Assembly (NCBI RefSeq): GCF_001179945.1
Contig: NZ_CVSG01000068.1
Span: forward strand, 1 to 64,000
Source: Candidatus Pelagibacter communis
GTDB taxonomy: Bacteria; Pseudomonadota; Alphaproteobacteria; Pelagibacterales; Pelagibacteraceae
Direction of reading: 5' to 3'
Length of the DNA: 64,000 nt
Shown: positions 5,527 to 48,627 of the stretch, in pieces
Position numbering within the stretch: position 1 is the stretch's first letter
How the letters are laid out: each line of letters begins with the position of its first letter
Translations under genes and position numbers: made by a program
Notes under the pieces: generated by a model
Databases searched by the model: none
What the model saw: only the letters and a program-made list of their open reading frames with translations
What the model was told of the DNA's origin: nothing

Positions 5527-6318
5527 ATGATTGGGTTAATTTTTGGGGAAACTGAATTTCCAAAATATATTTTAAAAGAAGTCAAAAAAAAACACAATTA
5601 TATTATTATTGATTTAACTAAAAAAAAAATTTTCAAAAAAGATAAAAATTCTTATTCTGTATCAATCGGCCAATTCGGCAAGATAATTTCTATCTTAAAA
5701 TCAAACAATTGCAAAAAAGTATTATTTGCTGGAAAAGTATCAAAACCAAACTTTAAATCAGTAAAATTAGACTTAAAAGGTATTTATTATCTGCCAAAAA
5801 TTATTAAAAGTTCGAAATTAGGAGACGCAGCTATATTAAAAAAGATAATTAAAATTTTAAGACACGAGAATATTCGAACTGTAAGTTCGAATAAGTATAC
5901 TCCAGAAATAAGTTTATCAAAAGGTATTTACTCATCAATAAAACCAAATTTTAAAGATAAAAAAGATATAAGATGTGGTGAGAAAGCTCTTAAAAAATCT
6001 GGAAATTTTTCTTTCGTACAAGGTGTAGTTTGTAGAAATAATAAAGTTATAGCTTTAGAGGGCAGAAGTGGAACAAAGTCTATGATACTTAGTGTTAAAA
6101 AGATTAATAAAATTCAAAGCGGAGTTTTAATAAAATTTCCAAAAAAAAAACAAGACAAAAGAATTGATCTTCCAACAATAGGTCTAGAAACTTTTAAGCA
6201 ATGTAAAAAAGCAGGTCTGAAAGGTATAGTTTTAAAGCATAATTTGAACATTTTTTTAAATAAAATGAAAAGTATTCAATTCGCAAAAAAAAATAAAATG
6301 TTTATTTTAGTTAAATGA
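5527..6318 (+). CDS. lpxI: UDP-2,3-diacylglucosamine pyrophosphatase LpxI
   Basis: LpxI hydrolyses UDP-2,3-diacylglucosamine to lipid X and UMP and replaces LpxH in alphaproteobacteria. The protein belongs to the DUF1009/LpxI family: an N-terminal domain starting IGLIFGETEFP, a central linker and a C-terminal domain with VVCRNNKVIALEG and the conserved segment LPTIGLETF. I chose the ATG at 5527 (263 residues) over an upstream in-frame ATG at 5476, because the family starts directly with the GLI-G motif and the longer form would run 44 bases into lpxA. The gene sits between lpxA and a sugar dehydrogenase, with lpxB following. Confidence 0.9.
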   Translation: MIGLIFGETEFPKYILKEVKKKHNYIIIDLTKKKIFKKDKNSYSVSIGQFGKIISILKSNNCKKVLFAGKVSKPNFKSVKLDLKGIYYLPKIIKSSKLGDAAILKKIIKILRHENIRTVSSNKYTPEISLSKGIYSSIKPNFKDKKDIRCGEKALKKSGNFSFVQGVVCRNNKVIALEGRSGTKSMILSVKKINKIQSGVLIKFPKKKQDKRIDLPTIGLETFKQCKKAGLKGIVLKHNLNIFLNKMKSIQFAKKNKMFILVK

Positions 6319-41292: not shown

Positions 41293-42089
41293 AGAAAGCT
41301 AAGTGGGTAGTTCCTACAATTTATATTATCTTCTTGATGCTTCCAATTTATTGGTTGCTTAACATGTCATTTAAAACAACAACTGAAATTATAAACACTT
41401 ACACATTATGGCCTCAAGAATTTACATTAGATAATTATAAGAAAATTTTTACCGACAGTACTTGGTATACTGGGTATCTTAATTCTATTTATTACGTAGT
41501 GATGAACACCGTGATCTCAGTGGCAGCTGCACTACCTGCAGCTTACGCTTTTTCTAGATATAAATTTTTAGGGGATAAACATTTATTTTTTTGGTTATTG
41601 ACTAACAGAATGGCCCCTCCAGCAGTATTTGCCTTGCCATTTTTTCAATTTTATTCATCAGTAAACTTGTTTGATACACATGTGGCTGTAGCTTTATCAC
41701 ATTGTTTGTTTAATATTCCTTTAGCAGTTTGGATTTTAGAGGGATTTATGTCTTCTGTGCCAAAAGAGTTAGATGAAACAGCTTATGTTGACGGTTATTC
41801 GTTTTGGAGATTTTTCTTTAAAATATTCATACCCACTATTACTGCAGGCATAGGTATTACTATGTTTTTCTGTTTTATGTTCTCTTGGGTAGAATTATTA
41901 TTAGCTAAAACACTTACAGCTGTAGCAGCCAAACCTATAGCCGCAACAATGACAAGAACCGCCAGTACATCAGGATATGAATTAGGACTACTTGCAGCCG
42001 CAGGAAGTTTGACAATTATACCTGGTGCAATAGTAATTTACTTTGTAAGAAACTATATAGCGAAAGGATTTGCTTTAGGAAGGGTATGA
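41289..42089 (+). CDS. glpQ: Glycerol ABC transporter permease (GlpQ-like)
   Basis: The 266-residue permease resembles MalG/UgpE: N-terminal helix, LPIYWLLNMSFK, and the EAA loop PKELDETAYVDGYSFWRFFFKIFIP (about 157-181). About six helices are visible. It pairs with GlpP to form the channel. It is not the E. coli periplasmic phosphodiesterase GlpQ. It overlaps the small membrane gene downstream by four bases. Confidence 0.92.
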   Translation: MKKAKWVVPTIYIIFLMLPIYWLLNMSFKTTTEIINTYTLWPQEFTLDNYKKIFTDSTWYTGYLNSIYYVVMNTVISVAAALPAAYAFSRYKFLGDKHLFFWLLTNRMAPPAVFALPFFQFYSSVNLFDTHVAVALSHCLFNIPLAVWILEGFMSSVPKELDETAYVDGYSFWRFFFKIFIPTITAGIGITMFFCFMFSWVELLLAKTLTAVAAKPIAATMTRTASTSGYELGLLAAAGSLTIIPGAIVIYFVRNYIAKGFALGRV

Positions 42090-42445
42090 TGATGTTTAAT
42101 ATGTTAAACGCCGCCACATGGGGTGATATGGCTAAAAAAAAAGAAAAGGGTTTCTTTGATTTTGAATTTATTACTTGGATGGCATGGACATGGCAAACTG
42201 CAGCATTTTTTATTTTTATCGTATTATGTTTAACAGCTATGATCATTTGGGAAAAAAAATCACCTGGTGGCGGCCCAAGAAAAGGAATTTTAGGTCTAGA
42301 CACTACAAGAGGCGATAGACTATTTATATCATTACTTGGCAGTGCTTTTATTCACTTATTCTGGTTAGCATTGATTGGAACAGTTCTATGGCTAGCTACA
42401 ATTTTTTGTGTTTTTTATGCAATTTTTGTTTTCAGATATGTTTAA
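42086..42445 (+). CDS. glpU: Small membrane component of glycerol transporter (GlpU-like, DUF2160)
   Basis: The 119-residue protein has two or three transmembrane helices (about 35-52 and 82-112) and the WEKKSPGGGPRKGILGLDTTRGDRLF loop typical of the small DUF2160 protein that accompanies glycerol ABC transporters in Rhizobium. Its exact role is unknown; an assembly or coupling role is possible. It overlaps glpQ by four bases and ends the operon, one base from the converging methyltransferase gene. A start at an internal Met (residue 14) is also possible. Confidence 0.88.
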   Translation: MMMFNMLNAATWGDMAKKKEKGFFDFEFITWMAWTWQTAAFFIFIVLCLTAMIIWEKKSPGGGPRKGILGLDTTRGDRLFISLLGSAFIHLFWLALIGTVLWLATIFCVFYAIFVFRYV

Positions 42446-42446
42446 A

Positions 42447-43217
42447 CTAAGGTTTGATTATTAAATTAAGTTTAAAATTTAAAAATTTATCAATTTTTAA
42501 AAAACTAAAAATTTTGTAAAAAATATTTTCAAATAATATTAGAATACCAAATAATAATCGACTATCAGGCAAAAACTTCACTCTACCATAATCACCTGTA
42601 AAAATTATTAAAATTAAAGAAGTATACCATTTACGATGTATCTTTAAATTAGCTTTTTTAACTGACTTTGAAATTTTACTAAAATTATATTGTCCATAAG
42701 GCGAATCTTCTAAATTTTTTTTGAAAAAAAATTCTAAAAACCATTTCAAAAAATTTCCAATTAAACTCGATAAATTTGGTTCACTTATTATTATAATACC
42801 GTTTGGTCTTAATATATCTTTTAATTTTAGAAGAATTTTTTCAGGGTTTTTTGTATGATGCAAAACACCTTTTAAAACAATAATATCATATTTTTTTTTA
42901 CCTACAATTTTTTTTTCTAAATCTATAATTTTATAAATTGGTCTGTTGTCATTTTTTTTTGCTGCATTAAGTATTTTTTTTGATGTATCAGTTGCTATAT
43001 AACTCTTTGGCATTAATTCATTATTTAAACCTATACACGATGGGAAAACACCACATCCAAATTCTATCAAATCTTTCCCGTTTAGATTCACAGAATTAAA
43101 AAAAAGTCTATTTTCATATTCAATGCATTTAGCTATCCCACCATTTTTTAAAAAAATTTTTTTTTGAAATATTAATGTATTTTCTGTTTTGATATTTAAA
43201 TTATAATTTTTTTTCAT
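42447..43217 (-). CDS. SAM-dependent methyltransferase (class I)
   Basis: The 256-residue protein has a SAM-binding motif I, LIEFGCGVFPSCIGL (about residues 52-66), a motif II acidic residue in SYIATDTS, and VLKGVLHHTKNPEKIL, the 'LHH' region common in UbiE/glycan methyltransferases. It then has a long hydrophobic C-terminal half, including LILIIFTGDYG and LFGILILFENIFY, suggesting membrane association. It overlaps the upstream glycosyltransferase by 17 bases and probably modifies the same lipid-linked sugar. The substrate is not known. Confidence 0.8.
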   Translation of the reverse strand: MKKNYNLNIKTENTLIFQKKIFLKNGGIAKCIEYENRLFFNSVNLNGKDLIEFGCGVFPSCIGLNNELMPKSYIATDTSKKILNAAKKNDNRPIYKIIDLEKKIVGKKKYDIIVLKGVLHHTKNPEKILLKLKDILRPNGIIIISEPNLSSLIGNFLKWFLEFFFKKNLEDSPYGQYNFSKISKSVKKANLKIHRKWYTSLILIIFTGDYGRVKFLPDSRLLFGILILFENIFYKIFSFLKIDKFLNFKLNLIIKP

Positions 43218-43911
43218 ATCTAAAATATTTAATTATTAAAAACAAAACTAGTTGAATTAAAATTTTTAACCTCATCTTACTGTAACCTTTATCTCTAATT
43301 CTAAAATTAATGAAGACTTCTTTTATGTCTAATTTTTTAGTAGAACTTAATACTATATCTATTAGAATTTTATATCCTAAGAGTATTAGTTTTTTTTCAA
43401 CAGATTTGAACACCTTTTTTTTAATTAGAAAAAATCCTGACATAGGGTCTTTAATTTCTTTTCTAAATAATAAATTAAATAAATGATTTAAAAGTTTTGA
43501 AAAAACAAACCTTATAGGATTCAAATTAGCTTCCTTATAATTGATAAGCTTTCTTGAACCAATCACAATATCACAGTTCGTCTTTTTAAACTTAGCTATT
43601 AGCTTACGTAAATCTCTCGGATTGTGTTGTAAATCCCCATCCATTACTATCAAATTATCATTTTTAGATCTATTGAAACCATAAACAACAGATTTTGATA
43701 AATCTCTTGGTTTTTCTTTTCTGATCAATAATCTAATTTTTTTACTTTTAATATTTTTAAAAATTTTATCAGAACCATCATTTGAGTCATCATCAACAAA
43801 AATGATTTCATATTTATTTTTATAATCAACAAGAGCTTTTTTTAAAGACGAAATTAATTTAGATAAGTTTTTTTTTTCTTTATAAATTGGAATTACAATT
43901 GAAAACTTCAT
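43201..43911 (-). CDS. Family 2 glycosyltransferase (polyprenyl-phosphate sugar transferase-like)
   Basis: The 236-residue GT-A protein begins FSIVIPIYKEKKNL and has the nucleotide-sugar motifs EIIFVDDDSNDGS and LIVMDGDLQHNPRD (metal-binding DxD-like D-G-D), then VIGSRK and DPMSGFFLIKK. This pattern is that of dolichol-phosphate mannose synthase-type enzymes, which load a sugar on a polyprenyl phosphate carrier. That makes biochemical sense beside a GT-C membrane transferase that uses such carriers, encoded divergently. No membrane anchor pair is obvious apart from a C-terminal hydrophobic stretch. Confidence 0.85.
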   Translation of the reverse strand: MKFSIVIPIYKEKKNLSKLISSLKKALVDYKNKYEIIFVDDDSNDGSDKIFKNIKSKKIRLLIRKEKPRDLSKSVVYGFNRSKNDNLIVMDGDLQHNPRDLRKLIAKFKKTNCDIVIGSRKLINYKEANLNPIRFVFSKLLNHLFNLLFRKEIKDPMSGFFLIKKKVFKSVEKKLILLGYKILIDIVLSSTKKLDIKEVFINFRIRDKGYSKMRLKILIQLVLFLIIKYFRYEKKL

Positions 43912-43957
43912 TTAATTTGCAGTACTTAATAATTCATTATATTATATCATATATTTA

Positions 43958-45601
43958 ATGAAAAAATTCTATTCAAAAAACAATTATATATACATATTAT
44001 TATTTTTTATTTCATTAATAGGTTTATTCACTTATAAACATTATGGGATAGGGATAGAGGAGCACTTTCATAGAAAGTCCGGATTTTACTGGCTAAATTA
44101 TATTTTAAGTTTAGGTGAATTTGAAAATTTAAAAAAAGTTGTAGATTTAAAATTAGACGAAATAAAAACTTTTACTCCTAGATTATTTCCAATAGAAAAA
44201 TTTGGCTATTATGGAGTTTTGTTTGATTTACCACTAGCATTTGTAGAAACTTTTTTTCACATTAATGAACCTAAAAAATATTTTTTACTAAGGCATATTT
44301 CTATTTTTTTCTTTTTTTTAACTAGCGCATATTGTTTTTATAAAATTATCGAACTTAGGTATAAAAATACGTTTTTAGCCTTATTTGGATTTTTAATTTA
44401 TATTTTCTCTCCAAGAATATACGGGAATATTTTTTTTGATAATAAAGATATATTTTATCTTTCAATGATAACTATAAATATGTTTTTCTATTTCAAATAT
44501 TTAAAAAAAGATAACAATTTAAATTTAATTTTTTTTTCTATTTTTTGTGCATTTTCAACCTCATCAAGAATCATAGGACTATTAATACCTATTTCCTTTA
44601 TATTTTTAATTTTTTTTGAATTTTTATCCAATAAAAGCAAAAAAGAAATTCTCAAAAAAATTTTTATTTTTTTAATCACATATTTAATAGCATTATTTGT
44701 TCATTGGCCTTACTTGTGGACTTTAGACTTAAGTCAAATAATAAACTTTTTTGATCCATTTTTCTCTGTTATGAATCCAATAGTTTATTTCAATGGTGAG
44801 TTTTATCAATCTAAATACCTACCTGCTTCTTATCTTCCTATTTGGATAGCGATAAGCACACCAGTTTATATATTTCTTTTTTTTTTAATTGGTTATTTTA
44901 AGCATTTTAAAAGAGTATTTAATAGGTTCATTAATATTAATGAAAAAAATTCAAATTTTTTTACTGATATGTGGAGTTCTAAAAATGAAAACTTTGATTT
45001 ATTTTTATTTATAAATTTTCTATTAGTTATCATTACATATTTTGCGTTAAATCCAGCATTATTAAGTGGATGGCGACATTTTTATTTTTTAAACTTTTTT
45101 ATAGTTTATTATGCATGTTATTGCGTAAATAATATTTTTTTAAACTTTAGAAAAACAAAATATAAAATAATATTTATAATTATATTGTTTATTATGAGCT
45201 GTTCTACTGTTTATGATATTTACAAATACCATCCGTTTCAAAGTGTTTATTTTAATAATTTAATTTCAAACAAGATGAAAAAAAATTTTGAGGTAGATAC
45301 GCAATCATTATCTCGAGTTCATGCAGTTCAAGAGTTATTAAAAGAGGACGGAATTCTTAATATCGCTACAGCATCATGGACACCACTAGAAGATGCTCGC
45401 TCTTTAATATCAAAAAATGATTGGAATAGGCTTAATTTTGTGGGGACAGAATTTGATAAAGCTGACTTTATATATTCAAATTTTTATTATGAGGTAAATA
45501 CCACTTATAACGAAAAATATAAAATACCTAAAAATTTTTCCATATATAAAACATTAATAATTGATGGTACAAGAATATATTCAATATATAAAAAAATATA
45601 A
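43958..45601 (+). CDS. Multi-pass membrane glycosyltransferase (GT-C / GT39-like)
   Basis: The 547-residue protein has about ten or more hydrophobic helices, a first extracytoplasmic loop with acidic residues in GIGIEEHFHRKSG (the GT-C catalytic-acid position), DNKDIFYLSM near residue 168 and WRHFYFLNFF near 370, and a soluble C-terminal domain. It fits the ArnT/PMT-type GT-C superfamily, which transfers sugars from polyprenyl-phosphate donors on the periplasmic side. The neighbouring GT2 probably makes the donor. A small membrane protein gene follows. Substrate unknown. Confidence 0.8.
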   Translation: MKKFYSKNNYIYILLFFISLIGLFTYKHYGIGIEEHFHRKSGFYWLNYILSLGEFENLKKVVDLKLDEIKTFTPRLFPIEKFGYYGVLFDLPLAFVETFFHINEPKKYFLLRHISIFFFFLTSAYCFYKIIELRYKNTFLALFGFLIYIFSPRIYGNIFFDNKDIFYLSMITINMFFYFKYLKKDNNLNLIFFSIFCAFSTSSRIIGLLIPISFIFLIFFEFLSNKSKKEILKKIFIFLITYLIALFVHWPYLWTLDLSQIINFFDPFFSVMNPIVYFNGEFYQSKYLPASYLPIWIAISTPVYIFLFFLIGYFKHFKRVFNRFININEKNSNFFTDMWSSKNENFDLFLFINFLLVIITYFALNPALLSGWRHFYFLNFFIVYYACYCVNNIFLNFRKTKYKIIFIIILFIMSCSTVYDIYKYHPFQSVYFNNLISNKMKKNFEVDTQSLSRVHAVQELLKEDGILNIATASWTPLEDARSLISKNDWNRLNFVGTEFDKADFIYSNFYYEVNTTYNEKYKIPKNFSIYKTLIIDGTRIYSIYKKI

Positions 45602-45602
45602 T

Positions 45603-45866
45603 ATGAAATTATTTGTTTATAAATCTTTATTTACTTGTCTATTAATATTTATTCTTTTTCACTTAACTATTGGCTACATAGCTAGAAGTTACGAAGCTAA
45701 GATATACAATACTTTTTCAAAAGATAAAATAAATTTTATCAAAGAAAAAATAAGATCTGAAATAAAAGCGGGTATAGAAAAAGATCAAATTTTATCAGAT
45801 GAAGACACTCTTCTAATTAATCAATTTTTAGAAAAAATTTCTAAAGAGTTAAATAAAAAAAAATAA
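45603..45866 (+). CDS. Small single-TM protein in glycan island
   Basis: The ATG at 45603 gives 87 residues; a longer frame starts at 45561 inside the upstream gene and is less likely. A single transmembrane helix (about 6-24, KSLFTCLLIFILFHLTIGYI) is followed by a charged, probably helical periplasmic segment with KDKINFIKEKIRSEIKAGIEK. I recognise no family. It lies one base after the membrane transferase and before the aminotransferase, so it may be an accessory subunit. It is only an inference that it acts with them. Confidence 0.7.
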   Translation: MKLFVYKSLFTCLLIFILFHLTIGYIARSYEAKIYNTFSKDKINFIKEKIRSEIKAGIEKDQILSDEDTLLINQFLEKISKELNKKK

Positions 45867-45871
45867 TTTTT

Positions 45872-47083
45872 ATGTTTTCAAAACGGACAAGGCTATACAC
45901 AAATTTTAATTTATTGAATTTTTTTCACATTATTAAATCTTTTTTTTTAAGAAAAAAAAATTTTCAGAATGAACTACAAAATTACTTAGGGACTAATAAT
46001 ATTTCATTAACATCCCAAGGAAGATCTGCCCTGTATGAAATTATAAAAATCATAATTAAGAAAAAAAATAAAAGAATATTTTTTATAGCTCCTTACACTA
46101 TTCCAGCTGTAATACATGCGATTAAATATGCAGGAGGTGAAGTTGTTTATATTGATCTAGATAAATCTACTGGCTTAATAGATGAAGACAAATTAGAAAC
46201 AAAAATAGACAAAAACTCTGCAGGAGTAATAATTACTCATTTATATTCAAGCTCGATTCACATAGAGAAATTTTTAGAGAGATTCAAAAATAAAATATCA
46301 ATCATAGAGGATGCTGCAATTAATTTTGGAGCCAAATCTAATGATAAATATCTTGGAACTTTGGCTGATTATGGTTTTTTTAGCTTTAATATTGTTAAAA
46401 ATTTGAATACTTTAAATGGGGGAGCAATATACATAAAAGATAATCAAACATTTCATGAATATGTTACTAAAAAAAAACACGATAAATTTCCCGCTCTAAA
46501 TACTATCAACCTACTTATTACAATAATAATTTTAAAATTATTTTTTAATAATACAATTTATCAATTATTTCATTATTTTTTAGTAATAGTTTATAAAAAA
46601 AAAATCAATTTTATCTTAAAAAAAATATATCCGATCCTTTTCCATAATTATGAGGAGGAAATTCCAAAAACTTATTCTTATGATTTTAATTGGATAATGA
46701 ATGATGTAGGGATTTATAATTTAAAAAAAATTGAAAAAGATTTTCATGAAAGACGAAATAAAGCAATGATTTATTCAAAACTAATCAATAATCAAGTAGC
46801 AATCAAATACGATCGTTTTTCAAATGATAATGCTTTATTAGAATATACAATTATTTTAAAAAATATAGATAATCAAAAAGCACATGTAAAGCTTATGGAA
46901 GAAGGTTACGATATTAGGCATACATGGTACATTAATAATTATTCAAAAGAAAAAAACGAAAAAAATGAAAACTTTAATGACACTTATTTAGTTGAAAATA
47001 AAATATTTTGTCTCCCATTGCATAATAATATTAGTGAAAAAGATATTCATAAGATTTCTTCTATAATAAATAGTTTTGTTTAA
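45872..47083 (+). CDS. DegT/DnrJ/EryC1/StrS-family PLP aminotransferase-like protein
   Basis: The 403-residue protein has the fold-type I sugar aminotransferase pattern: LTSQGRSALYEIIK at the N-terminus, FFIAPYTIPAVIHAIKYAGGEVVYID, IIEDAAINFGAKS, and SFNIVKNLNTLNGG, where the Lys (about residue 181) is the likely PLP-binding residue. Family members make amino sugars on nucleotide-sugar precursors, and some act as dehydratases. A hydrophobic insert of about 50 residues (NLLITIIILKLFF onwards) is unusual and suggests membrane attachment. It belongs to the surface-glycan island. Confidence 0.82.
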   Translation: MFSKRTRLYTNFNLLNFFHIIKSFFLRKKNFQNELQNYLGTNNISLTSQGRSALYEIIKIIIKKKNKRIFFIAPYTIPAVIHAIKYAGGEVVYIDLDKSTGLIDEDKLETKIDKNSAGVIITHLYSSSIHIEKFLERFKNKISIIEDAAINFGAKSNDKYLGTLADYGFFSFNIVKNLNTLNGGAIYIKDNQTFHEYVTKKKHDKFPALNTINLLITIIILKLFFNNTIYQLFHYFLVIVYKKKINFILKKIYPILFHNYEEEIPKTYSYDFNWIMNDVGIYNLKKIEKDFHERRNKAMIYSKLINNQVAIKYDRFSNDNALLEYTIILKNIDNQKAHVKLMEEGYDIRHTWYINNYSKEKNEKNENFNDTYLVENKIFCLPLHNNISEKDIHKISSIINSFV

Positions 47084-47084
47084 A

Positions 47085-47648
47085 ATGTCTTTTAAGTTAA
47101 AAAAAAATAATAAAAATTTAGTTAAAATTTTCAGCATAATAGAAGAAAAACTCCCAGATAGTATTTTTAAAAAATTAGGACTAAGTTTTTTTATTTATAT
47201 GACTACAAATAAAATAATTCATGTCTATACTATTGAAAAAAACAATGATATTTCAGCTATAATTACTGTAATTGATTATAAAAATTATATTTCAATGAAT
47301 AAAAAAATTATAAAATATTTTATTCAACATCCATTAAAAATTTTGATTAATTTTATTTCAATACTAGGCTCAACGTCAAAAAAATCTTTAATTAAAATTA
47401 ATGAAGATTATCTTCATTTATTACATTTAATAATAATAAAAAAAAAATTTACTGATATTTCAATTAAAAGAAAAGATAGTATTTTAAACAATTTTTATAA
47501 AAAAATACTTAAGAAACACAGTTCAAAAGTATTATTTCTTTGTTTTGACGAAAAAAATAAAAAAGCACAAAGCTATTATAAAAGAAATAAATTTAATTTT
47601 TTTTATAAAATTAAAAACTTTATATATCTAAAAAAGAGATATCTTTAA
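47085..47648 (+). CDS. Putative GNAT-like acyltransferase
   Basis: Starting at the ATG at 47085 (187 residues) rather than a TTG at 47076, the protein ends with the GNAT-like pattern CFDEKNKKAQSYYKRNKFNF, resembling the acetyl-CoA site helix (A-x-x-YxKxGF) of N-acetyltransferases. The N-terminal half is poorly conserved. It lies between the aminotransferase and a flavoprotein-like gene; an acetylation of the amino sugar made by the former would make sense. Its stop shares a base with the next start. The family call is tentative. Confidence 0.6.
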   Translation: MSFKLKKNNKNLVKIFSIIEEKLPDSIFKKLGLSFFIYMTTNKIIHVYTIEKNNDISAIITVIDYKNYISMNKKIIKYFIQHPLKILINFISILGSTSKKSLIKINEDYLHLLHLIIIKKKFTDISIKRKDSILNNFYKKILKKHSSKVLFLCFDEKNKKAQSYYKRNKFNFFYKIKNFIYLKKRYL

Positions 47649-48568
47649 TGACATATTATAAGAATATTTTGTTAGGTTCTGGCATGAGTTCTATAGTGTA
47701 TTTCAATTTAAAAAATGAAAAATTAAAAGTAATAACTGGAGATGAAAAAAAAATTTTAAAAAGTAAAAATTTCTATGAGTACCAAGCCTTTGGTGGAAAT
47801 AGTAACATTTGGGGTGGTTACATAAATTTTGATAGACATAAAAAATTTTTAAAAAATAAAAATTATAATGAATTATTTCAAAAAAAATTATTTCAAACAA
47901 AAAAAATATTTAGTGAAAAATCTTATTTTACAAACACTTATAGTCTCGTTGATCAAAATAAAGATATTTTTAGAGTTAAGAGGCAATATTTAAAAAAAAA
48001 AGTTTTGTTTAACAAGATTAACAAAATTATTATTAAAAAAAGATTGATAGAACTTATATCTAATAAAAAAAAATATTCTACTAATAAATTGACCCTTTGT
48101 ATTGGAAATCTTAATTTGATAAAACTTTTGTATAAATCTGAAATTATAAATTCAAATGATATAATTTCTTTCGAGGATGGAGATTGTACATATGTTTTAA
48201 ATTTTTTAATAGATAAAAAAAAAAATTTTTATATACCCATGCCTCTTTTTTATATTTTTGAAAAACTTTTTTTGAAAAAATCTAAAAATTATAGACTAAT
48301 AAAATCAAGCTTAATACTACAAAAATTTTCCTCAAAAATTCAAAACATAAAAATTTCATGTAAAGAATTGATGAAAATGGATGATAATAGACTTAGATTT
48401 TTTCTATCTAATCATATAGCGAATTTAAGAATTAATAATATACCTGTGAGAAAATTTATTTTTAAAAAATCAAAAAAAATTAATATTTTTTGTACTGGCA
48501 CAGTAAAAAAATATGTTCCAGGTCCAGTGATTCAAGATTTAATTTTTGATATTAGTTCAAACTGCTGA
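47648..48568 (+). CDS. Compact GMC-like FAD-binding protein of unknown function
   Basis: The 306-residue protein starts YYKNILLGSGMSSIVYF, a variant dinucleotide-binding loop (GSGMSS), and carries FGGNSNIWGGYINF at about 55-68, which resembles the FAD-contact motif GGTSNHWGG of GMC-type oxidoreductases from polysaccharide loci. The C-terminal region has FFLSNHIANLRINNIPV and FCTGTVKKYVPGPVIQD. It is about 200 residues shorter than usual GMC enzymes, so parts of the substrate domain are missing. It ends the glycan island. An oxidase acting on a sugar or lipid is possible, but function is not known. Confidence 0.6.
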   Translation: MTYYKNILLGSGMSSIVYFNLKNEKLKVITGDEKKILKSKNFYEYQAFGGNSNIWGGYINFDRHKKFLKNKNYNELFQKKLFQTKKIFSEKSYFTNTYSLVDQNKDIFRVKRQYLKKKVLFNKINKIIIKKRLIELISNKKKYSTNKLTLCIGNLNLIKLLYKSEIINSNDIISFEDGDCTYVLNFLIDKKKNFYIPMPLFYIFEKLFLKKSKNYRLIKSSLILQKFSSKIQNIKISCKELMKMDDNRLRFFLSNHIANLRINNIPVRKFIFKKSKKINIFCTGTVKKYVPGPVIQDLIFDISSNC

Positions 48569-48627
48569 CATAGATTTTATTTGCTTATATCGATAAAATA
48601 GAATATTAGATATTAAAATTTAATTAA

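Follow-up and report, generated by a model that had tools for sequence, protein, structure and literature searches.

What is the function of a block of seven genes that, in a minority of SAR11 genomes, stands between an ABC-transporter operon and gap? The block (hereafter the island, genes A to G) occupies positions 42,447 to 48,568 of a 64,000-nucleotide stretch of Candidatus Pelagibacter communis DNA, contig NZ_CVSG01000068.1 (the window), whose source genome measures 681 kb and is 59% complete. An initial annotation, made from the sequence alone, had proposed a surface-glycan island, in which a polyprenyl-linked, N-acylated amino sugar, oxidised and methylated, is added to a surface glycan or protein. 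The reading that we favour, at a probability of roughly 0.55, is that the genes form a surface-glycan decoration island that can be exchanged at one fixed slot of SAR11 genomes, and in which an amino sugar would be made by oxidation, transamination and acylation and attached by glycosyltransferases of the GT2 and GT-C types. The argument is carried by two gene couplings and by the exchange of the island at that slot. All seven reading frames are present at the place where the annotation had put them:

A, 42447..43217, minus strand: S-adenosylmethionine-dependent methyltransferase, 256 amino acids (aa), an optional member (PF13489, 3e-13)
B, 43201..43911, minus strand: GT2 glycosyltransferase resembling dolichol-phosphate mannose synthase, 236 aa (PF00535 and match to 5mlz)
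C, 43958..45601, plus strand: GT-C (PMT_2-like) membrane glycosyltransferase, 547 aa
D, 45603..45866, plus strand: single-pass membrane protein of a new family, 87 aa, partner of C
E, 45872..47083, plus strand: DegT aminotransferase with an insert past the stretch holding the pyridoxal phosphate (PLP) lysine, 403 aa (PF01041)
F, 47085..47648, plus strand: diverged GNAT-like N-acyltransferase, 187 aa (hhalign to a SAR11 GNAT family)
G, 47648..48568, plus strand: reduced GMC-related flavoprotein, 306 aa (GSGMSS and GGNSNIWGG motifs, hhalign)
Upstream region of gap, 48569..48627, no strand: would arrive with the island (from the spacing at empty sites)

For D, the ATG at 45603 is likely a better start than the listed TTG at 45561, and for F, the ATG at 47085 likely better than the listed TTG at 47076. 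As the annotation had it, housekeeping loci lie on both sides: the upstream flank is an ABC-transporter operon, whose last gene (42086-42445) encodes 119 aa, and the downstream flank is gap, from 48628. On the upstream side the names glp and DUF2160 are provisional, and gap is taken as such from the earlier annotation and our own reading.

The aminotransferase and its flavoprotein partner

E belongs to the DegT family (PF01041, 2.9e-34), and K176, presumably the PLP lysine as in the rest of the family, is invariant in nine sequences, which places E in the DegT/DnrJ/EryC1/StrS fold family. The hydrophobic insert claimed for it is real: about 50 extra residues, partly hydrophobic, follow the PLP lysine ahead of the motif that is conserved next, so that the two motifs are 95 residues apart in the E proteins of five islands of the window's kind (type 1), as against 43-46 in four ordinary DegT proteins of the same genus (four other insert-type proteins gave no length with the pattern used). 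The most hydrophobic 19-mer of E starts at residue 207. Among the solved DegT enzymes nearest to it are QdtB (3frk) and scyllo-inositol transaminase (7b0d), which presumably act on the substrates that their names suggest.

What sets the insert-type DegT apart is its company. G, or a longer flavoprotein related to it (the long form), lies within two open reading frames (ORFs) of the insert-type enzyme in all 22 distinct cases and of the ordinary enzyme in none of five (Fisher p 1.2e-5; distinct proteins over all loci, one 108-aa DegT fragment left out). A pattern derived from E led to 23 loci in named genomes, all in Pelagibacteraceae or Pelagibacterales, and a flavoprotein of this kind stands beside E in every one, in fragments at L157 and L167, while E itself runs off the contig at L167 and L168. 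At L167, in one genome, the long flavoprotein is split over neighbouring frames of 252 and 256 aa, possibly through a frameshift or an assembly error. The gene orders differ (E-F-G, long form-E, convergent), so the coupling is not that of one inherited operon. Because the flavoprotein travels with the aminotransferase, it more likely acts before transamination than as a late decoration; the oxidised sugar of the initial annotation thus keeps its GMC-type flavoprotein, but the oxidation would move to an earlier step. No dehydratase or ketoisomerase gene was found in the five type-1 islands seen with both edges. In phage records DegT matches were remote (two records, ~31% identity), and viral contigs yielded no confirmed relative of either G or the long form.

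The long form is the flavoprotein at 18 of the 23 loci, 12 of which lie in a second slot, beside mdh in the mdh-sucC region, and it measures 454-485 residues where complete. The GMC C-terminal domain PF05199 matches 14 of 16 members at E <= 0.1, which is weak (one member scores 23.0 against a cut-off of 24.6), and the profile of the family found no solved relative at the limits used. The structural model is good (pLDDT 84, pTM 0.89) and aligns along almost the entire chain with fructose dehydrogenase (Z 26.1), bacterial pyranose 2-oxidase (Z 25.6) and C-glycoside oxidase (Z 24.5), as well as FAD glucose dehydrogenase (Z 24.1), with GMC enzymes overall at Z 23.6-26.1. The predicted fold and the C-terminal domain point to a GMC enzyme. 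It occurs in nine of 121 genomes, a set made up of the window's own and 120 relatives in which the gap protein served to locate the slot (72 belong to the same genus and 48 to the same order). A search of 384 other alphaproteobacterial genomes gave a single C-terminal match of 62 residues (E 2e-7), to a 530-aa frame that probably encodes an ordinary GMC enzyme. G is found in five of the 121, and no genome has both, so that the two are mutually exclusive.

G itself carries, in the same order as the long form, the glycine-rich FAD motif GSGMSS, then GGNSNIWGG (GG.SN.WG) and later KL.LC.GN (KL.L..G), and hhalign aligns the two families over 40 columns at 86.5%, whereas none of 11 other SAR11 families, two of which we read as FAD enzymes, exceeded 7.9% and none of 30 column shuffles exceeded 1.0%. 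These motifs argue for FAD binding of the GMC type. Across the six islands compared G measures 305-307 aa, about 150-180 residues less than the long form, with 107 of 308 alignment columns invariant and a ratio of nonsynonymous to synonymous substitution rates (dN/dS) of 0.14-0.38 (0.20 in the closest pair). Owing to this constant length and purifying selection, the short G is a stable form rather than an accident of truncation; the "shortened GMC-like flavoprotein" of the annotation stands as GMC-related and short, not as a damaged gene, and on sequence grounds G is best read as a reduced, diverged relative of the long form. Weak matches to G in genomes G033 and G053 were put down to chance, since those loci hold no island genes.

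The GT-C protein and its small partner

C scores 25.0 bits against PMT_2, just under the cut-off of 26.1, and the family model matches 13 of 16 C-family members at E <= 0.01 (best 1.4e-10); no PDB sequence matches C at E <= 1. Members with a complete start have an acidic pair following the first hydrophobic stretch, which is presumably catalytic. Taken together, these features argue for a GT-C transferase.

In D, which has 87 residues, a single hydrophobic segment at the N-terminal end is followed by a charged tail, and the protein has no coherent Pfam match. It was found in 52 of the 121 genomes, the window's included, which is 52 of 73 in the same genus and none of 48 in the sister family, and in none of the 384 further alphaproteobacterial genomes; judged by sequence, it is a new family, confined to the window's genus within the genomes searched. 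A C-type GT-C lies within two ORFs of all 51 distinct D proteins (adjacent in 47), and conversely D lies within two ORFs of 54 of 57 C-type GT-Cs. When 19 of the weaker among 63 D hits were fetched, each had a C-type GT-C (19/19), a few of these loci being already known to have a weak C match nearby. Some of the coupling counts, here and for E, come from loci that were collected by way of a single member of the pair (C or E), for which the D-hit loci and the contrast with ordinary DegT serve as partial controls. The genes are arranged C-D in 33 cases, D-C in five and convergently in nine, and because of these three orders the two are better regarded as a working partnership than as one inherited operon.

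From this observed pairing, D would be a dedicated small membrane subunit of C, and, as its N-terminus is positively charged, the tail would probably lie in the periplasm, close to the active site of the GT-C. A review (PMC8035078) raises the speculative idea that small GT-C enzymes may bind their acceptor with the help of another protein, and D is a candidate for such a protein. GT-C genes with no D within two ORFs occur in the mdh-sucC region at L131, L134 and L146; among those genomes, G070 and G060 have D elsewhere, and G027 has a D fragment at a contig edge. A further recurrent slot (L208-L219, L222) has a divergent D facing a 525-533 aa GT-C of the C superfamily.

The methyltransferase, the GT2 and the probable acyltransferase

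B is a GT2 (Glycos_transf_2, PF00535, 1.1e-31), and its top solved-structure match is dolichol-phosphate mannose synthase (5mlz, 2e-33), which places it at the level of family among putative polyprenyl-phosphate-sugar synthases of the GT-A/GT2 type; a simple hydropathy scan gave no transmembrane segment in it. A matches the Pfam methyltransferase PF13489 (3e-13). The annotation's methylated product keeps its methyltransferase but only as an option, as A is present in three of the five type-1 islands seen with both edges (the window, G054 and G044; not G057 or AH-287-K14).

F has no Pfam match of its own. Against the Pfam-confirmed canonical GNAT family of the mdh-sucC islands, however, hhalign gave an E of 6e-5 and a probability of 65% over 155 columns, which is consistent with GNAT sequence register, and both F and that family have a hydrophobic middle segment. 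In the island of G054, a sugar-type N-formyltransferase (L009:8800-9516) stands in the place of F; it is a relative of the formyltransferases of ArnA and of dTDP-4-amino-4,6-dideoxyglucose. Because a formyltransferase takes the place of F there, F presumably acylates the amine made by E, so that the N-acylated amino sugar proposed from the outset is probable. The annotation was also right that several products lack a clear family: none of D, F and G could be credibly assigned to one in Pfam.

Exchange of the island at a fixed slot

Comparison across relatives, which the annotation had proposed as a check, showed a variable island missing in most of them, not identical content with a known pathway in all, the result it had named as refuting. 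Of the 55 same-genus genomes placed on the flank tree described below, the window's included, 40 have no insert in the slot, five carry the type-1 island (the window, G057, G054, G052 and G044), four an island of a second type, one a partial island with C (G015), four other genes (among them G055, with remote C and D), and one is cut off. A sixth type-1 copy was found in the named genome AH-287-K14 (L150). Where the slot is empty (36 sites measured), the distance from the stop codon of the preceding gene to the start of gap is -38 to 26 bases; gap thus normally follows the upstream operon directly, and the island separates the two. At L083, L084, L088 and L089 the last glp gene was masked by an antisense frame, and emptiness was confirmed by tblastn and by spacing.

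A tree of the flanks (gap, glpQ and glpP of the same 55 genomes), partly poorly resolved and with its bootstrap not settled, has the type-1 islands scattered: the five need five changes, four of them forced by well-supported branches. Ten slot C proteins, from both island types and G015, nevertheless fall on one side of a branch with support 97/94. Since the islands are scattered on the flank tree while ten of the 11 slot C proteins form one clade, we take the island to be exchanged at a fixed slot, and the simplest reading of the trees would be one main colonisation of the slot, after which recombination in the conserved flanks exchanged its contents. An early idea, that a C-D unit hops between slots, was abandoned because the C tree groups by slot (glp-gap as one group, mdh-sucC with two changes).

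Type-2 islands seen whole (G011, G037 and G072) hold C, D, F, a GT2, an ordinary DegT and a protein of 132-141 aa, cupin-like in the one scanned; the island of G037 additionally holds a GDP-mannose-dehydratase-like protein. The 141-aa protein of one type-2 island was considered as a ketoisomerase and rejected, its nearest relatives being WbuC-family cupins, below cut-off.

The bases before gap (48569-48627 in the window) look alike in five of the six type-1 copies, with a TTGCTT-like box, 17 bases, a TA..A box and 11-21 bases to the ATG, as if the island brought a promoter for gap; the pattern was picked out by eye, after the fact and with no control. Other occupants were seen at the slot as well. 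A membrane-anchored glucose/sorbosone-dehydrogenase-like protein (~427 aa; PF07995 in L095) adjoins the last glp gene at L008:14315-15598, L009:2824-4104 and L095:6760-8043, and a remote relative starts at window position 6315. Single-gene occupants are membrane proteins of 396-398 aa (L092:1866-3056, without a Pfam match, and L123:12782-13978) and a 229-aa protein that we read as methyltransferase-like (L085:13227-13916).

A second glycan slot lies between mdh and sucC (L130 2821-12616, L174-L207). Mdh abuts sucC in both sister-family genomes checked, and 43 of the 45 same-genus genomes in which the slot was read from mdh on hold another GT-C, of 512-540 aa, with changing cassettes (exceptions G025 and G069). 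C was never found in both slots (0/9/11/17, p 0.036), which is weak evidence given incomplete genomes; the count leaves out G017 and G011, which have C in the first slot and an unknown second slot.

The island was suspected to be lower in G+C than its flanks, and it is. Its genes have 15.4-22.8% G+C, against a mean of 29.7% (lowest 21.9%) for 50 other window ORFs, a mechanically chosen set of non-overlapping frames of at least 150 aa (Mann-Whitney p 2.7e-5), and third-position G+C is also lower (p 4.6e-4). In SAR11, O-chain clusters have about 23.8% G+C and the genomes 29.4% (PMC11898729). Glycan clusters of these bacteria are thus commonly poor in G+C, and the low value does not indicate that the island came recently from a foreign source. 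A defence role was dropped, as the single PADLOC match is a methyltransferase domain.

Proposed pathway and alternative explanations

From the observed gene content, couplings, slot exchange, selection and families, we infer the chemical steps, their order relative to lipid loading, the sugar and the acceptor. G would oxidise a sugar hydroxyl to a ketone, as its full-length counterpart suggests; E, whose family is observed, would turn the ketone into an amine with PLP; F, or in one relative the formyltransferase, would acylate the amine; and A may methylate the product. B would load the sugar onto polyprenyl phosphate, and C, with D as its subunit, would transfer it in the periplasm to lipopolysaccharide (LPS) or protein. 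Given the hydrophobic stretches in E and F, both the amination and the acylation may take place at the membrane, perhaps on the lipid-linked sugar itself. Carried further, this becomes a more tentative proposal, possible but one we would not lean on, that the amino sugar is built on the lipid: B would load a plain hexose, the GMC flavoprotein oxidise it, the membrane-bound DegT aminate it and the membrane-bound GNAT acylate it, before C and D, as a transferase of two subunits, moved it to the surface.

A conventional nucleotide-sugar route comes next and is somewhat doubtful. E would aminate an NDP-keto sugar supplied from elsewhere in the genome, F would acylate it, and B and C would use the product, G being a redox accessory or a modifier of the finished glycan and the hydrophobic inserts merely tethering the enzymes near the transferase. 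QdtB and scyllo-inositol transaminase among the nearest solved enzymes fit this route, as do F beside an ordinary DegT in type-2 islands and the GDP-mannose-dehydratase-like protein of G037; in the five type-1 islands with both edges, however, neither a dehydratase nor a ketoisomerase was found, and the flavoprotein goes with the insert-type DegT (22 of 22) and not with the ordinary one (0 of 5).

Protein glycosylation, in which the same machinery would target periplasmic or outer-membrane proteins instead of LPS, is unlikely. C does resemble the protein O-mannosyltransferase family PMT_2, but that family also includes transferases of lipid A and other glycans, and nothing in the island points to a protein acceptor. 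Less likely still is an ordinary Gtr-type O-antigen seroconversion cluster with nothing new in it, where B would be GtrB, C the type-specific Gtr and D a poor GtrA. A GT2, a GT-C and a small membrane protein do stand side by side, but we know of no oxidase-aminotransferase pair in Gtr clusters, and the GtrA family (PF04138) was found in just one of the 73 same-genus genomes (G015), four of 121 overall, and not in the window's own, 59% complete, genome, in searches that did not extend to Wzx-type flippases. Moreover, D has one hydrophobic segment, whereas GtrA has three or four according to PMC8035078. It is equally improbable that G is a decaying, catalytically dead remnant and the type-1 pathway runs without oxidation, for although its GMC catalytic region is unrecognisable, its length reduced and its link to the long form invisible to HMMER, its uniform size, invariant columns and low dN/dS speak for a working protein.

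Several results weigh against the favoured reading. HMMER with the long-form profile misses G (negative scores, no match in its own genome), which leaves the 40-column profile-profile alignment as the one link between the two, and G has no Pfam or PDB match, its profile giving against solved structures three hits of E 0.71-1.0 to plainly unrelated molecules. The C-terminal His/Asn region of GMC catalysis is not recognisable in the G alignment and the AlphaFold model from six sequences reaches a pLDDT of 38, for which reasons catalysis by G is something that we infer. Nor does the long form settle the substrate: cholesterol oxidase (Z 24.7) and choline oxidase (Z 24.0) differ from the sugar enzymes by no more than 1-2 Z, and the fold therefore does not decide for a sugar. 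The aligned stretch of F lacks Q/RxxGxG/A, the loop motif by which GNAT enzymes bind coenzyme A (CoA), and F also occurs in three islands (L078, L095 and L119) with an ordinary DegT and no flavoprotein, so that its hydrophobic segment is no proof of lipid-linked chemistry. The island contains no flippase, and the eleventh slot C protein (G055, L121) lies far outside the clade on a long branch. Finally, dN/dS is well below 1 for B to G (A left out, two D pairs without dS), but dS is near or above 1 in most pairs, which makes the values rough.

Relation to known systems and significance

The route to 4-amino-4-deoxy-arabinose through ArnA, ArnB, ArnC and ArnT likewise has an aminotransferase, a formyltransferase, a GT2 resembling dolichol-phosphate mannose synthase and a GT-C in one pathway, but ArnB uses a UDP-keto sugar made by ArnA, and neither a flavoprotein nor a counterpart of D is involved. 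With the multi-component transmembrane systems of the Gtr and GtcA-CsbB-YfhO kind, as described in PMC8035078, the island shares a GT-A polyprenyl-phosphate-sugar synthase, a GT-C and modular decoration of a surface polymer; unlike them, it partners the GT-C with the single-segment D and adds an oxidase-aminotransferase-acyltransferase set. Oxidation of a sugar hydroxyl followed by transamination is known from aminoglycoside antibiotics, where, according to PMC5461906, the dehydrogenase and aminotransferase pairs KanQ/KanB and GenQ/GenB1, together with the FAD-dependent AprQ, act on an assembled glycoside. In contrast, the enzyme here is a DegT with an insert, the setting is a cell-surface island, and the oxidase branch was found in SAR11.

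The SAR11 O-chain cluster in hypervariable region 2 (HVR2) is well described (PMC11898729, PMC2217521, PMC7318151, PMC7542561), and the first two report there, as seen here, hypervariable low-G+C glycan genes between conserved flanks. HVR2 lies between the 23S and 5S rRNA genes, whereas the present slots are small ones at glp-gap and mdh-sucC, no rRNA is found in the window at Rfam gathering scores, and the accessible text of the four papers does not mention either slot. In the open-licence literature, nothing relevant was found on a GMC-aminotransferase glycan route, on a lipid-linked amino-sugar route with a flavoprotein, or on such genes in SAR11. The E-flavoprotein and C-D couplings look new.

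Little is known about SAR11 surface chemistry, and the phages that can infect a cell are often determined by its surface glycans. What is offered here are two protein pairs, an insert-type DegT with a GMC flavoprotein and a GT-C with an 87-residue membrane protein as its likely subunit, as well as slots for glycan-gene exchange outside HVR2 and a clean empty site for the comparison of strains. If the amino sugar were indeed built on the lipid, very abundant ocean bacteria would carry, in an exchangeable cassette, a route to a lipid-linked amino sugar in which no nucleotide amino sugar is required.

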